The notes below the pieces were generated by a model, which saw only the letters and a list, made by a program, of their open reading frames with translations, made no database searches and had not been told where the DNA came from. From a virus, in the IMG/VR virus record IMGVR_UViG_3300049489_000993, positions 1 to 64,000 of that record: DNA of 64,000 nucleotides. The stretch is one strand, 5' to 3'. Both the position numbers and the translations under genes were made by a program. Every line of letters begins with the position of its first letter. The stretch's first letter is position 1. This document shows, piece after piece, positions 56,956 through 63,207 of the stretch.

Positions 56956-57161
56956 GAACGCCGCAGAACGAGCCGTGTGGGCTCGTGGGCGGGGATGGCG
57001 CTTTTGGCGAGGGTTACAGGGACCGGAATCTCAGCGTGGCACCTGGGGCACGAGGTGAGGCACGTCTCGCCCAGGGCGTCGAATACGAGAATGGGCACGC
57101 GCACCTTGAGCTTGTCGCCGCTCTTTTGCAGGAGGTTGTGCGCGCACTCGGGACACCGCAT
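56952..57161 (-). CDS. Small zinc-ribbon protein (69 aa)
   Basis: A 69-residue protein with CPEC at residues 3-6 and CPRC near 38-41, with another Cys at about 34. The pattern resembles the Mu Com-type or other small phage zinc ribbons that bind mRNA or DNA. Its start overlaps the stop of the large helicase gene (TAATG). It may regulate late genes or work with the helicase protein. Confidence 0.65.
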   Translation of the reverse strand: MRCPECAHNLLQKSGDKLKVRVPILVFDALGETCLTSCPRCHAEIPVPVTLAKSAIPAHEPTRLVLRRS

Positions 57162-60100
57162 TACCCATCATCGTCTGATTCCCCGAGCATGCGCAAAGCG
57201 TCGTGGAGCGGGGGAATGGCGCGGCGGCGTTCCATCTCTTGCTCGGCGCGCGCATGGTTTCGCTTGGAGCCCGCGCGGGCGCCCTCGCGGAGGTCGCGCA
57301 GCGTTTGCGGCACGTAGCCCTCGGTGGTGGGCGGCTCGCGCTCGACGCGCACGAACAGCGGGCGAAACCGATCTGCGCCCGCCTTGAAACGCTCGCGTGC
57401 GTCGGCTTCCTTTTGCTTGTCCTTTTTGCGCTTGTCCTTCTTCGCTTTGAGGGTGAGGCGGATGCTGTCCGCGGCCTGCATGTTGGACGGCGGGCGCTGT
57501 TTCTTGGGGGCGTCTTGGTTGCCGAGCCAAGACATCATGGTCAGGCGCGTGGGGTTGTTCGCGAGCGCCTGTAAGGCGTCAGGATCGCTTTTCTGCGCAT
57601 CGGGGTAGGTACGGGGCACCTCGAGCGCGCGAGCGTCTTGGCGGGTGCCCTGGAGCCGCTCGACGAACTCCTCGAATGGGAACACGGTAACGCCGCCCAG
57701 GAAGCGGGGGTCGCTGTAGTGGGTGAGATACGCCGCGACGGCCTCTGACTGGCTTGGGAAGCCCAGCATGACCTTGTCCTCGTCCTCGTCGGCGAAGGCG
57801 CCGTTGGGGCCGCGTTTTTTCATTTGGTGGACGACGTAGACGTTCTCGGCGTTCTCGTTGGGACCGACGTAGACGTCCACCTTGTCGCCGTCGAGCCCTT
57901 CGGTGCGATGAATCTCCCCGTACGGGAACTGCATTTCCGTTTCGCCGTGCTCGCCGGTGTGCTCGTCGAACCATTGGCGCGTGGAGCCGGCGGGGTTCTC
58001 GACGTGGATGTGGAGCCCACGGAAGCGGATGTCGGCCTTGAACAGCGAGAGCTGTCCCTGCGGGGGAGGTGGCGCCGAGGCGGTGAGCTTGGTGGCGGGA
58101 TCGGGGATGGGGTGTGCGGCGGGGGTCTCCTGGCGTCCGTACACCGCGTTGTGCGCCGCGTGCCACTCGGGGCCGAGGGCGGCGACGCGCTTCTCGAACG
58201 CCGTGAGGGCGCGCTTGATGGCGGCGTCGTCGCGCCCATATTTCCGCTTGTGCTCGCGCGGGTCCATGCCCTCGGTCGCGCCCCCACCTACGCGGCGCGC
58301 GGTGGCCTTCCCGGCGACGTAGGACAAGAACACTTTGACGCCCGATGCGAGAGTGACCGTCTCCTCGGCGCCGGAACCGTCTGTGTGGCTCTTGAAGTCG
58401 CCGGGGGCGGGTTGTGTTGGTGGGGACTGTGCCGGAGCCGGAGCCGGAGGTGGTGCCGCGACCGCTTCCAGCGTGCGCGTGGCGTCCGCGATGGGTGTGG
58501 TGGGTGCCGCGGAAGGCGTGCTCGGCGGGGGCTCCACGGCCTTGCCTTGGATCTTCGCCAGTACGTCTGCCATCGCGAGGGGCTTTTCCATCCACTCGCG
58601 CTCGGCGGGCGAGATTTGCTTGCCCTGATTGATCTTCGCGGCGAGGTCGTACTTACGACGGAGAATCGCCGTCACGTTCTCGTCGAACTTGTTGTCCTCC
58701 GCAACGACCCAGTAGATGTTGACGGCGTTTTGCTGGCCGATGCGGTGTGCTCGGTCTTCGGCTTGGCCGATGTCGGCAGCGGTCCACGGGAGGTCGTTGA
58801 ACACGACCTTGTCGGCGGCGGTGAGCGTGGCGCCGACGGCCAGCGACGGGCGCGTCGAAACGAACACGCGCTTGGGCGAGCCCTCCCGCATGAACTCGGC
58901 CTTGGCGGCTTCGCGCACGTCGTCGGATTGCTGGCCGTAGTGCAGGATGGCCTCGTCACCCAGCTCGGCGACAATGGCTTTCGCGGCGGCGACCGACTCA
59001 GAGAACACAAGCACCTTGCTGTCGGAGCTGCCAAGGATCTCCTTCACCATCTCGACGGTGGCGGGAGCCTTCGCGAGTGCGAGCTGGCCTCGGATGCGGC
59101 TGTATTCGCCGACCGAGGTCGACGGCGCACCGCGACCGCCCGCGCCGTACTCGCCGACCGCTTCTGCGTAGAGGTCGGCGTCGTTCTCCTCATCGCGACG
59201 CGACTCCCGGAAGTCTTCGGCCGCTTTCGCGTATGCGGCCTTCTGGCGCTCGGTCGCTCCGGGCGGTGGCGGCTTGGGCTCTCGCACCTCGCCGATATCG
59301 GGGGCACCTGGCGCGTAGAGTGTGCTGATCGTGGTCTGCTTCGGCGGAAGGTCTTTCAGCACCTCAGCCTTCGTGCGCGCGAGGTAGTGGGGGCGCATCT
59401 TGTTCCACGCCGCCCCGTGCGTCGCCCCCTTCAACTCTTTCGCCGAGCCCCACAGGCCCGGCACGACCATCTCGAGCTGCGTGAACAGCTCATCCTTGCG
59501 GTTCTTGACGGCGGTGCCGGACATGAGGATGTGGTGCTGCGTGATCTTTGCTACACTTTGAATCGCCTTAGTAGTTTTGGCTTTGGGGTTTTTCGCACGG
59601 TGACTGTTGTGGACTAGGACGCCACCGACGGAGAAGGATGGGTGCCCAGCCACCTTGAGATCGTAGTAGTGACCCGCTTCGTTTCCTGGGTAACTTCCCG
59701 ATTGGTGAACCGTAACGTCGCCCACCCTAACTCCCGCAACTTCTCCTCTTTCTTGAAATCCTGGCCTTTCCGAGACAAGTGCGAGAAGCCATCCACTTCG
59801 ACGCTGAGCTTCCGATCTACCAATGCGAGGTCGGCTTTGTAGTTGGTGGGATAGCCGGGCTGTCGCCGACCAAGGCTGATCGCGTGATTCCACTTCCACG
59901 GAGGGCCGAGCGCCTCGAGTAGCGTTCGCTCGGCTTCTGTCGGTCCCGTACCGTTGCCTCTGCGCACCGTCGGCTTCCAACCCATCGCCTTGAGCGACGC
60001 CGACGCCTTGGCGCGCGTCTCTGCACTGCGCATCGGGTTGTTCGCCCTCATCCGCGCCGAGCACGCCGGGCTCTTCTTCCCAATATTCGCCGCCCGCAGA

Positions 60101-62041
60101 GCAGCCTTCCCTTCCGGCGTCATCAGGCTCTTCGCGTAGCCCGGACGGCTCATCCTCCACTTCGCTGAACAGGAGGTCCCGCAGAAACGATTCTTGCTCC
60201 GAGGCGGCGTGAAGGTCTTCCCGCAAAAGGCGCATGGCTTCTGTGTGGCTGACAAGCGTGTCTCCGGGCTTGAGGTCTTCGGCGTAGATCCAACCTCTCC
60301 CGGTGAAGAACGGATGGTGCGCCGAGCACGTCACAGACGTGCTGCCGTACCTTAGCTCGATGCGATTGGCAAAACCAGACCGCCGAAACGCGCCTAGAAC
60401 TGGAGCCGGACCGAGAGCCGATAGGACAATGTCGCCGACTTGAATCTGATCGATACGACGAGGGCCGGTCGGCGTGTCAACGAGCGTCTCAGGACCGAAG
60501 CATTCGTCGACAATCAGTGTATCAAAGCCCGCCGCTTTGAGATAGGGCATGAACTTCTCGAGGCTTTCGTAGTTGACCGTCACGAGATTCTTGCCCGAGA
60601 GGTCCATCAGGCCCTTCTCGCCGCCCGCGTGCATCGCCGCGAGGAACGCGGCAGGGTCATCGATCGACGCAAGGTCGGTGCCCTTCTTGCCTTTGCCCGT
60701 AAGCAGATCCTTGGACCGAAGCTCCTTCGCATCGAAGTGCCCTGGGAAGAACTTGTGGGCTTCTTGAATCCAAGTGCGGCGCACAACCTTCGGCACGACG
60801 ACGATCGCCTTCTTGTTGTTCTTGGCGACCCACGCAAGCGCCTGAAGCGTTTTGCCAAGCCCCATTTCGTCGCCGACGATGGCGTTGCCGTCGTTGCCGT
60901 CGAGGAAGCGCACCATCGCGTTCTGGTACGGCTTGAGCGCAAAGCCTGGCGCGAGCTTGGCTTGCACCTCGGGAATCGGGGCCTCGGCGGCGGCTTTGTC
61001 GCGCGCGGCTTTGTCGGCGGCGTCTTTGATCTTGGGATCGAGCACGAACGTGAAGTGCGGGAGTGCGGCGCGGAGCTTCTCGAGCGCCTCCTCCATGAGC
61101 GCGTGCGAGAACGTGGAGCGGCTCCAGGTGCGGGGATCCGCTTCGATGATGCCGGTGAGCTTGCCGGTTTTGTTCGACATGATCTCGTTGAAGTCGCGTG
61201 AGAATGTCGAATAGAACACAAAGCGGCCGTCGTCCTCCTGCACAAGCGCGATCGTGTCGCGGGCGCGCTTGTTCACGATGGCCGAAGCGACTTCGTACAC
61301 GTCGACGGGCCGTGGGGGCGTCGGCGGTTGTGCGACGGGCGTGGCAACGGGGGCCTGCTCCACGATCTCCGGCTTCTCGGGGATGTGGATCTTGATCCCA
61401 CGCTTCTCGAGCGCCGCGACGTAGGCGCTTGGATCTTGCGCCACGGGGTGTGTCGGTGGGACCGTCTCGCGCGCGGCGGCACCGCGCTCCCCGTTCCAGC
61501 GGAACCCGTGCGTGCGGTGAATGTCCTTGAACGCGGCGAACTTGTCGCCGAGGTACTGCGCCGTGCGGATGTGCAAGCCCCCGTTGGACGTCCACTGGCC
61601 GACGAGGTCGGCGTCCGCAGTTGCCGGCGGCGGGTCCGCGAGGCCCACGCGGATGAACGCCTCGAGCCCGTAGTGCCCGACGAGCTGCCGGCGGTACTTG
61701 CGCAGCATCCGGCGCATGCGCTCGACGTCTCCGCGGGCGCTTCCCCACGACTGATAGTCGAGCTTGTTGAAGCCAATGTCGTTCTGCTCGCGGACCTCGT
61801 CGACGGAATGCAACGCGTCGCCCATGCGCTCGAGGAGAGCGACCGCTTCCGGGTCCGCGTGACGCTCCTTGAACTCGTGGTGCGCCTGCTTGTCCTCGAC
61901 GACCTCCCACTCGCCCTTCGCGTTCTTGCGGTGGAGCTTGCCGTCGGCCCATTGGTGGACGGTGCCGGCGACAGCGGCTTCCGCTTTCGCGATGGCGTCC
62001 TCGACATACAGGCGGATGGGGCTGTCGGCAGAGTCACTCAT
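57161..62041 (-). CDS. Giant SNF2-type helicase/polyvalent protein with InPase-like domain, interrupted by an intein
   Basis: A 1626-codon gene. The ATG at 62041 has GGAGG six bases upstream. Residues 390-398 are Walker A GDEMGLGKT of an SNF2 ATPase; motif II is split, with DE before and SHRAKN after an intein at 514-812. The C-terminal helicase half has LVFSESVAAAKA, VSTRPSLAVGATLTAADKV and QAEDRAHRIGQQ, an SNF2 signature. About residues 1337-1460 (GLDGDKVDVYVGPNENAEN, DEDKVMLGFPS) match the InPase-like domain of phage polyvalent proteins. It follows the MuF gene. It may be injected with DNA and counter host defence, an inference from the family. Confidence 0.9.
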   Translation of the reverse strand: MSDSADSPIRLYVEDAIAKAEAAVAGTVHQWADGKLHRKNAKGEWEVVEDKQAHHEFKERHADPEAVALLERMGDALHSVDEVREQNDIGFNKLDYQSWGSARGDVERMRRMLRKYRRQLVGHYGLEAFIRVGLADPPPATADADLVGQWTSNGGLHIRTAQYLGDKFAAFKDIHRTHGFRWNGERGAAARETVPPTHPVAQDPSAYVAALEKRGIKIHIPEKPEIVEQAPVATPVAQPPTPPRPVDVYEVASAIVNKRARDTIALVQEDDGRFVFYSTFSRDFNEIMSNKTGKLTGIIEADPRTWSRSTFSHALMEEALEKLRAALPHFTFVLDPKIKDAADKAARDKAAAEAPIPEVQAKLAPGFALKPYQNAMVRFLDGNDGNAIVGDEMGLGKTLQALAWVAKNNKKAIVVVPKVVRRTWIQEAHKFFPGHFDAKELRSKDLLTGKGKKGTDLASIDDPAAFLAAMHAGGEKGLMDLSGKNLVTVNYESLEKFMPYLKAAGFDTLIVDECFGPETLVDTPTGPRRIDQIQVGDIVLSALGPAPVLGAFRRSGFANRIELRYGSTSVTCSAHHPFFTGRGWIYAEDLKPGDTLVSHTEAMRLLREDLHAASEQESFLRDLLFSEVEDEPSGLREEPDDAGREGCSAGGEYWEEEPGVLGADEGEQPDAQCRDARQGVGVAQGDGLEADGAQRQRYGTDRSRANATRGARPSVEVESRDQPWSATARLSHQLQSRPRIGRSEAQRRSGWLLALVSERPGFQERGEVAGVRVGDVTVHQSGSYPGNEAGHYYDLKVAGHPSFSVGGVLVHNSHRAKNPKAKTTKAIQSVAKITQHHILMSGTAVKNRKDELFTQLEMVVPGLWGSAKELKGATHGAAWNKMRPHYLARTKAEVLKDLPPKQTTISTLYAPGAPDIGEVREPKPPPPGATERQKAAYAKAAEDFRESRRDEENDADLYAEAVGEYGAGGRGAPSTSVGEYSRIRGQLALAKAPATVEMVKEILGSSDSKVLVFSESVAAAKAIVAELGDEAILHYGQQSDDVREAAKAEFMREGSPKRVFVSTRPSLAVGATLTAADKVVFNDLPWTAADIGQAEDRAHRIGQQNAVNIYWVVAEDNKFDENVTAILRRKYDLAAKINQGKQISPAEREWMEKPLAMADVLAKIQGKAVEPPPSTPSAAPTTPIADATRTLEAVAAPPPAPAPAQSPPTQPAPGDFKSHTDGSGAEETVTLASGVKVFLSYVAGKATARRVGGGATEGMDPREHKRKYGRDDAAIKRALTAFEKRVAALGPEWHAAHNAVYGRQETPAAHPIPDPATKLTASAPPPPQGQLSLFKADIRFRGLHIHVENPAGSTRQWFDEHTGEHGETEMQFPYGEIHRTEGLDGDKVDVYVGPNENAENVYVVHQMKKRGPNGAFADEDEDKVMLGFPSQSEAVAAYLTHYSDPRFLGGVTVFPFEEFVERLQGTRQDARALEVPRTYPDAQKSDPDALQALANNPTRLTMMSWLGNQDAPKKQRPPSNMQAADSIRLTLKAKKDKRKKDKQKEADARERFKAGADRFRPLFVRVEREPPTTEGYVPQTLRDLREGARAGSKRNHARAEQEMERRRAIPPLHDALRMLGESDDDG
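59606..60502 (-). mobile_element. Intein in the helicase DExH box
   Basis: A 299-codon intein, helicase residues 514-812. It begins with Cys (CFGPETLVDTPTG, block A), has block B-like TCSAHHPFFTGRGWIY, and ends with YDLKV, FSVGGVLVHN (blocks F and G) and a Ser +1. The TxxH position of block B is SAHH, so Ser replaces Thr. Residues 83 to about 260 in this frame are low-complexity Glu/Arg/Gly/Asp-rich and seem to be a by-product of the overlapping endonuclease gene. Splicing would restore LIVDE-SHRAKN, the ATPase motif II. Confidence 0.92.
59614..60255 (-). CDS. Putative homing endonuclease nested in the intein in another reading frame
   Basis: A 213-residue frame, +1 relative to the host gene. 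It starts at TTG 60255 with GGAG six bases upstream and stops at 59614, six bases beyond the intein's last codon. The N-terminus has four Cys (8, 11, 25, 29) of a zinc finger. Residues about 60-95 (NNPMRSAETRAKASASLKA) match the NUMOD3 DNA-binding motif of homing enzymes. The C-terminal part (YKADLALVDRKLSVEVDG, then H159, KGQDFKKEEKLRELGW) has the DUF559/Vsr-like nuclease pattern, as in EDxHD homing enzymes (D142, E153, D155, H159, D166). It would cut intein-free alleles. Strongly supported as coding by its motifs. Confidence 0.85.
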   Translation of the reverse strand: MSATQKPCAFCGKTFTPPRSKNRFCGTSCSAKWRMSRPGYAKSLMTPEGKAALRAANIGKKSPACSARMRANNPMRSAETRAKASASLKAMGWKPTVRRGNGTGPTEAERTLLEALGPPWKWNHAISLGRRQPGYPTNYKADLALVDRKLSVEVDGFSHLSRKGQDFKKEEKLRELGWATLRFTNREVTQETKRVTTTISRWLGTHPSPSVAS

Positions 62042-62061
62042 ACGGGGCCTCCGCGTCGGAA

Positions 62062-62100
62062 ACCCTAACGAGCTTGGACCTATAGTCTCAAGCGTGAGAC
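62062..62100 (-). promoter_or_regulatory. Repeated regulatory element, copy 3, full palindrome
   Basis: GTCTCA-AGCG-TGAGAC at 62085-62100 is a perfect 6+6 inverted repeat that shares TCAAGCGTGAGAC with copies 1 and 2. On the minus strand TTGAGA (62091-62086) could be a -35, but the -10 region (GTTAGG) is poor. It lies 44 bases upstream of the helicase start codon. Confidence 0.55.
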
Positions 62101-62106
62101 GTCCAG

Positions 62107-63207
62107 TCATGGGGTAGCCTTCCACAGTAGGAGCTTGGGCGGTTCCGTCCAGCGTTTGCGGCGAGGGCTCTTGGGGACATCTTCGGCGGTCGCGGACGCC
62201 GGTGGGTGGAATGTGCCTATGGGCTCGCCGACTTTGAGCCCGGTGCTGTGGCCGGCGCGCTTGCGCCCGGCTTGGACCGATTGCCCTTTGGGGAGCATGC
62301 GGGCGCCGCGGCCTTCGCTCTTGGCGGTCTCTGCTTCGTCCTCGCTCTCGGCGGGGGCTTCTGGTACTAGCTCACCATTGAGCCAGCGTAACCCCTTGGA
62401 AACGCTCACCATTTCGCAGGCACACCAAGGATGAACTCCCTCAACCGTGGCGCGCAGGTTCTTGCCCTTGCGCCCGACATTGGAGCCGTGGGCACGCAGC
62501 TCGCCGATCGTGAAGATGCGTGGGTTGCCGTTGGCGTCCAGGTACGCGGCTCGGCACGCGCTACAGGCCCCTGGGGAAGGGATCTTGCTCACGCCCGCCC
62601 CGGAGCCGCCCCGTTTCTCGATCGTGGCTGCAATGCCTTCCTGCATCGCGTTGTTGACCTCCGTGGTGGCGATGCGCTGCCAGTCGCGAGTCCAGTTGCC
62701 CATGGAGTGCCCGAGGTCGCTCTTGAGCTGCTCGATGGTTTCGCGTTTGGCGATGGCGGCGGCGGTCTTGTCGCGGATGATCTCTACCATCCGCTCCGGC
62801 GTGAGGTTGGCCTCGGCGCCGGTGACCTCGGCCATGACCTGCCCGGCGACGCGCGCGCCGAGCCCGACCACGTACTGCCCCGCGTGCTTCTGCGCCATGT
62901 CGACCGAGGCGCGCTCTTGCTCTGACAGGGCGAGCGGGAGCTTGTTCTCCGCAACGAGCTGGGCGACCTCGGCGACGGTCTTGGTGGCGAGCTTGGGGTC
63001 ACGCAGGATGGCCAAGAGCTGCCCATAGGCGAAGGGGTCTCGGATCAAGTCCTCGGAGGAGGGCACCTTGATGCCGGCGGCTTGGAGGTCTTTCAGGAGA
63101 TCGGGCGGGAGCGAGCGTGCGCCGAATACGGCGAGGGCGATGGCGGCGTGGTGGCGGGCAATGGTCGCGCGCACCCGTTCGAGTTGTTCCGCCGACCACA
63201 AGGGCAT
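62107..63207 (-). CDS. MuF-like head morphogenesis protein
   Basis: A 366-residue minor head protein of the Mu F/SPP1 gp7 family. GGGAG precedes ATG 63207. WTRDWQRIATTEVNNAMQ is the MuF signature helix. CSACRAAYLDANGNP, then VHPWCACEMV near residue 250, is the usual Cys/His zinc site of MuF C-termini. The portal gene should lie just beyond 64000. Its neighbour is the helicase polyvalent gene, a known MuF partner type. Confidence 0.9.
   Translation of the reverse strand: MPLWSAEQLERVRATIARHHAAIALAVFGARSLPPDLLKDLQAAGIKVPSSEDLIRDPFAYGQLLAILRDPKLATKTVAEVAQLVAENKLPLALSEQERASVDMAQKHAGQYVVGLGARVAGQVMAEVTGAEANLTPERMVEIIRDKTAAAIAKRETIEQLKSDLGHSMGNWTRDWQRIATTEVNNAMQEGIAATIEKRGGSGAGVSKIPSPGACSACRAAYLDANGNPRIFTIGELRAHGSNVGRKGKNLRATVEGVHPWCACEMVSVSKGLRWLNGELVPEAPAESEDEAETAKSEGRGARMLPKGQSVQAGRKRAGHSTGLKVGEPIGTFHPPASATAEDVPKSPRRKRWTEPPKLLLWKATP

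Follow-up and report, generated by a model that had tools for sequence, protein, structure and literature searches.

A putative mobile intein with a nuclease gene nested at +1 in a viral helicase gene

Can an intein and the nuclease that spreads it be written in the same bases, in two different reading frames? The question is raised by a 64,000-nucleotide stretch of viral DNA, here called the window, which belongs to an 89,456 bp IMG/VR virus contig (IMGVR_UViG_3300049489_000993). On its minus strand, a gene for a 1654-residue SNF2-type helicase (57161..62125) is interrupted by a 299-residue intein (59606..60502), within which a 213-codon gene for a homing-endonuclease-like protein (59614..60255) lies at +1 to the intein and helicase frame. 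Textbook inteins are either mini-inteins or carry a fused nuclease. The original prediction, made from the window alone, was that one DNA segment here encodes two proteins, and the comparison of many loci upholds it. The arrangement was then taken for a single oddity; it is instead a widespread class. We consider it highly probable that this intein is mobile and that its homing endonuclease comes from a separate gene overlapping it at +1, with splicing, internal translation and cleavage as predicted steps.

A nuclease gene inside an intein

The nested frame begins with a TTG codon, six nucleotides downstream of a Shine-Dalgarno-like GGAG (60262..60265, minus strand, read by eye) that falls within the GD codons of the intein. 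Its open reading frame (60255..59614) lies wholly inside the intein, as had been predicted. Two details of the prediction needed correction: the nested stop is found 8 nt before the intein end, i.e. five bases rather than six before the last intein codon, and the intein frame is stop-free across all 213 nested codons, not about 180. The encoded protein matches DUF559 in Pfam (45.2 bits, E 9.5e-12, cut-off 20.6), with an EDxHD-like catalytic domain at residues 137-201 (59653..59847, minus strand), preceded by a Cys4 zinc finger at residues 8-29 (60169..60234, minus strand). Among 49 aligned relatives there are 15 invariant columns. The finger cysteines C8, C11, C25 and C29 are invariant or at least 90% conserved, and E153, D155, H159 and D166, which we take to be the residues that give EDxHD its name, are invariant. 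The finger and the DUF559 label of the original prediction hold, but its NUMOD3-like region found no Pfam match at E<=1. The DUF559 match and the conserved relatives also bear out that the gene is real and not a chance shadow.

The predicted structure agrees with these assignments. The AlphaFold2 model of the nuclease has a mean predicted local distance difference test score (pLDDT) of 93.0, and its top three Foldseek matches are to NGO0050 (3hrl) and I-Bth0305I (3r3p), with E from 1.9e-3 to 7.0e-3 (for I-Bth0305I, probability 1.00 and E 6.5e-3). A sequence profile searched against the PDB gives the same two proteins (E 1.2e-12 for 3hrl, 6.2e-4 for 3r3p). I-Bth0305I is an EDxHD homing endonuclease with a similar catalytic-domain fold, but it is intron-encoded (a 'mobile intron protein'), whereas the nested enzymes fit NGO0050 better and add the N-terminal Cys4 finger. 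PHROGs returned weak matches only, to the finger and the core, and a single-sequence nuclease scan of viral contigs gave five pattern matches, none confirmed.

The surrounding insert has the hallmarks of an intein. It follows the DE of the Walker B motif (...VDE / CFGPETL...VLVHN / SHRAK), starts with C1, ends with HN and is followed by Ser at +1 (59603-59605, minus strand). Our home-made Hint hidden Markov models (HMMs), trained on six sequences including the window, with most other loci outside the training set, find both the N- and C-terminal Hint blocks in 107 loci. The +1 residue is C in 84 of these and S in 23, the C-terminal end is mostly HN, and insertion follows DE in 93 and EAH in 5. 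In the AlphaFold2 model of the window intein, the Hint parts are confident, i.e. residues 1-118 (60149..60502, minus strand, ten-residue blocks mostly >90) and residues 253-299 with blocks F/G (59606..59746, minus strand). Residues 119-252 between them (59747..60148, minus strand), which house most of the nested nuclease, are predicted to be disordered in the intein frame, with pLDDT <50 nearly throughout. The best Foldseek match is the gp41-1 intein (E 1.2e-7), among 34 matches at E<=0.001, and the sequence profile places the intein-like domain 2lwy first and gp41-1 second. We infer that the insert is a Hint-fold intein, and its intact terminal residues and predicted fold suggest that it splices itself. 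By our home-made HMMs, the window contains neither another such intein nor another such nuclease.

The two-in-one layout is found in hundreds of related virus sequences and in some bacterial ones. A tblastn search with the nuclease matched 41 phage records (Vibrio 37, Corynebacterium 2, Pseudomonas 1, Tunturiibacter 1), with 33-43% identity to the window nuclease among the 40 matches listed, and an intein-frame query matched many of the same records. In all eight isolate phages fetched the nuclease lies at +1 inside one long coding sequence (CDS), annotated as helicase, P-loop protein, coil protein or hypothetical; none of the eight records has a separate CDS for it. Nuclease-similarity scans, from which the best 80 matches were kept of 351, of 257 and of 401 (contigs overlap between scans), extended these counts. 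In the first profile scan 77 of 80 loci were nested at +1 with both Hint blocks, the exceptions being degenerate (L028), cut by the contig end (L030) or without intein (L050). Two further profile scans gave 78/79 and 75/79 loci nested at +1. A bacterial and archaeal profile scan gave 21 of 48, which are 21 of its best 23; two of its loci (L104, L105) have a nuclease without intein, and the 25 weaker ones (L113-L137) are other DUF559 proteins, not nested save for two fused in frame (see below). These 25 were left out of the merged set of 349 loci (the window, L002-L112, L138-L216 and L224-L384 minus L303-L305). A nuclease match is present in 346 of them and 339 hold at least 120 residues, forming 221 clusters at 90% identity. 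An unbroken intein encloses the nuclease, at +1, in 213 of these clusters, and no cluster has a third frame that stays open along the nuclease. The constancy of this register excludes the recent indel in an in-frame fusion that had been named as another possible origin. Finally, a scan anchored on the intein itself, with a 12-sequence alignment of its N-terminal block, recovered 79 further loci, 77 with the nuclease and always at +1, though an anchor built from inteins known as nested favours their kin.

In-frame fusions do exist: two archaeal inteins (Nitrosotalea / Thaumarchaeota; L113:3266-5398 and L116:3275-5398) carry a fused DUF559 nuclease. We rejected them as the source of the nested form, the fusion being seen in just these two among L113-L137. 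In the Cane17 portal intein, no nuclease of this family is nested (best E 0.022).

Host genes are varied. The window helicase (Pfam SNF2-rel_dom, Helicase_C and InPase) joins, in one phage protein, an SNF2 helicase to a C-terminal inorganic-pyrophosphatase-like domain (57161-62125). Pfam searches of ten further hosts identified, among others, SNF2/DEAH helicases, a helicase-methylase, a terminase large subunit and a clamp-loader AAA protein, while two of the ten gave intein domains only. The host frames of L070, L071, L085 and L106 stay open over the whole 7-8.7 kb fetched; these are very large helicase proteins with a nested intein of the same kind.

Two frames under constraint

How can a long gene stay free of stops in a second frame? 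In 93 non-redundant nested loci we kept the nuclease protein and drew its codons from the flanking host gene to obtain the expected number of stops. The intein frame has none against 945.4 expected, and the other frame has 1289 against 925.1. The zero must be read with care, since the underlying 107 loci were picked for open hosts and both Hint blocks, which tells against taking it at face value. This preselection gives weight to a natural control, the locus L357, in which the host is split: there, the host frame has 15 stops over the same stretch. The means of avoidance is simple. Stops in the intein frame need a T at the wobble position of a nuclease codon. This T is found in 3186 of 13084 cases before safe codons and in 0 of 5039 before codons starting with AA, AG or GA. 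Because an NNT codon can always be exchanged for NNC without changing the amino acid, the rule is open to every protein, and any nuclease could thus keep the intein frame open. At +2, by comparison, ATG followed by A forces stops, on average 2.33 per locus. A property of the genetic code may hence explain why the register is only ever +1.

Openness is not the same as conservation, and we therefore analysed each frame with the other held constant. Codons were swapped so as to keep the nuclease, its codon usage and the openness of the intein frame (93 sequences, 4174 pairs with 25-55% nuclease identity; the z-values of this test and its reverse come from 30 and 20 shuffles and from non-independent pairs). 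The excess similarity of the intein frame is strongest over nuclease residues 161-213 (z 16.9, 21.3 and 13.4), a segment (59617..59775, minus strand) that overlies the intein strand RVxxVEV and block F. It reaches z 7.9 at residues 21-40 and is absent at residues 101-120 and 141-160 (z 0.3). The reverse test gives z of 12-98 for the nuclease frame in all bins. The codon swaps thus reveal constraint on both frames, clearest across the final ~53 codons of the nuclease. Conserved motifs in both frames near the C-terminus had already been noted from the window. The z patterns of the two frames indicate truly dual-coded ends and a middle that is mainly kept open, in agreement with AlphaFold2. This is the reverse of a middle conserved in the intein frame and unrelated at +1: the nuclease is conserved throughout, the intein-frame middle weakly.

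Expression, mobility and rival explanations

The nuclease frame of the window begins to be open at intein nucleotide 172, and its sole start before the finger is the TTG at 247, led by the Shine-Dalgarno (SD) motif. The nested frame has a start preceded by an SD match of at least 5 in 32 of the 93 loci; the corresponding counts for the other two frames are 2 and 5. For a match of at least 4 the nested frame has 46, and the others have 7 and 23. This enrichment makes internal initiation likely. One might propose instead that ribosomes reach the nuclease by programmed frameshifting from the intein frame and make a helicase-intein-nuclease fusion. The invariable +1 register would fit such a mechanism, as would the nuclease frames that open far upstream of their first SD-led start (e.g. 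L101, L102), but neither the SD enrichment nor the lone SD-led start of the window would be expected from it, and we judge it improbable. Still less credible is that the nested frame is dead, an untranslated relic or a by-product of the intein sequence. Nuclease decay does occur, as L027 and L046 show: each has a single stop within the nuclease frame and an open intein frame. Yet conservation of the nuclease residues far exceeds anything that the intein frame would impose, and the invariant columns and high-confidence fold would be hard to explain in a shadow. Equally remote is the view that the in-frame reading is a loop retained in the mature protein, as proposed for the ShiLan domain discussed below. 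It would account for Pfam intein models falling below cut-off in the window, but not for Hint blocks at both ends in 107 loci, all with C or S at +1 and mostly ending in HN, nor for a predicted fold closest to solved inteins, gp41-1 foremost. Moreover, a retained loop should be harmful, since the insertion interrupts Walker B. A group I or II intron was rejected: positions 59000-61200 gave no Rfam match at E<=1, and the host frame is open throughout.

Some observations do weigh against a mobile intein with an overlapping nuclease gene. The openness of the window intein frame has log10 P = -1.9 by chance in this GC-rich window and is weak evidence alone. The Pfam models that miss their cut-offs are Hint_2 and Intein_splicing, and the Foldseek matches of the nuclease never reach E 0.001. 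Eight of the 221 clusters lack a contiguous intein, and 47 of the 93 loci have no SD match of at least 4 near the nested start. Lastly, the intein-frame excess is small but nonzero in the remaining bins (residues 1-20, z 4.4; 41-100, z 2.4-3.5; 121-140, z 4.8).

Empty sites speak for mobility. Seven viral loci carry the helicase of the window without the insert (62-86% identity), and a precise empty junction could be read in L217, L218, the phi673/phi674 pair and one Vibrio pair. The lytic C. glutamicum phages phi673 (L005, filled) and phi674 (L304, empty) are 99.2% identical in the helicase region apart from 906 bp, which is the intein; the Vibrio pair differs by 900 bp. The portions of the phi673 paper accessible to us report the intein and its absence in phi674 and do not mention the nested gene. 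In all four filled/empty comparisons the +1 codon differs at all three bases (TGT/GTG, TGT/GCG and twice AGT/TCG), which suggests that the element brings its own +1 residue. Distances between nuclease and intein, nuclease and extein, and intein and extein are correlated (Mantel r 0.44, 0.55 and 0.41, 0 of 999 permutations each), but these values partly reflect vertical descent with the host gene and are not by themselves proof of movement as a unit.

With a separate nuclease gene overlapping the intein, the cycle might run as follows. Reading through the helicase mRNA would yield helicase plus intein, and the Hint fold would splice itself out, as C1, HN, the +1 Ser and the predicted fold imply. 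Initiation within the intein, at the TTG that follows GGAG, would also yield the zinc-finger nuclease as a free 24-kDa protein, consistent with the enrichment of SD-led starts. As the empty sites and altered +1 codons suggest, this enzyme would cleave the Walker B codons of helicase alleles that lack the intein, and the intein, nested gene and +1 codon would be copied in jointly during repair. The nested enzyme probably spreads the intein.

The cycle may have two exits. Nuclease decay followed by deletion would leave mini-inteins, and such forms exist: L176 and L206, the two loci of the intein-anchored scan in which no remains of the nuclease were found, have inteins of ~130 residues at this helicase site. 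Seven of the 77 intein-anchored loci keep 25-83 nuclease residues (L174, L182, L192, L194, L195, L200 and L213, with L195 and L200 yielding an identical intein), and the remnants are the C-terminal end, from GWxVLRFxN onwards, where the intein strand is also encoded. Alternatively, a break in the intein frame would give a split intein with the nuclease gene in the gap. This layout is seen in one contig (L357:2888-4855), where the N-half of the host ends after the Hint N part, the nuclease follows at +1, and the C-half has an ATG just before its RVESVEI strand. We infer the direction of change, from broken intein to split form, from this contig.

Relation to known elements and significance

Fractured genes with an EDxHD nuclease gene between split-intein halves were reportedly described by Dassa et al. 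in 2009. The split locus L357 resembles this layout, and the closest fold to the window intein is gp41-1; in 213 of the 221 clusters, by contrast, the intein runs contiguously through the nuclease. Canonical inteins with an in-frame homing endonuclease (PI-SceI type) share with the present elements a nuclease between the Hint N and C parts, a conserved active-site motif as insertion site and empty alleles. By contrast, the nuclease of the window has its own gene at +1, and the middle of the intein, read in frame, is predicted to be disordered.

The nearest precedent is the ShiLan domain (Arsenault, Gosselin, Gogarten 2025, PMC11855218), a mobile insertion that leaves the host frame open and bears an endonuclease out of frame. 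According to that paper, its nuclease is of the HNH type, no splicing domain was found, the insertion is predicted to stay in the methylase, there is no detectable ribosome-binding site, and the authors could not assign it to any intein. Another such methylase with an out-of-frame insertion is reported in PMC12613952. Our elements share the open host frame and out-of-frame endonuclease with ShiLan but differ in their Hint domain, EDxHD/DUF559 nuclease, SD-enriched starts and many host genes. We found no description of an out-of-frame nuclease inside a splicing intein in the open-access literature, insofar as its texts were accessible. By its predicted Hint fold, terminal residues and empty alleles the element is an intein, of neither the in-frame-endonuclease nor the ShiLan type.

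A broader proposal seems to us reasonably likely, if less secure than the nested gene itself: that these loci form a large unrecognised class of mobile inteins, with two proteins per DNA segment, a +1 register fixed by the genetic code and a nuclease C-terminus that is truly dual-coded, and that breakage of the intein frame in such an element gives rise to split inteins like gp41-1. Inteins regarded as lacking a nuclease domain may then be mobile, and phage annotations miss a gene, as in all eight isolate records. The split form hints at how natural split inteins, tools in wide use, could originate, and homing can be tested directly with the phi673/phi674 pair, whose laboratory host is harmless. 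From the restriction to +1 follows a simple rule, open to testing, on the conditions under which genes can come to overlap, and in the nested inteins two proteins may be waging an arms race over shared bases.
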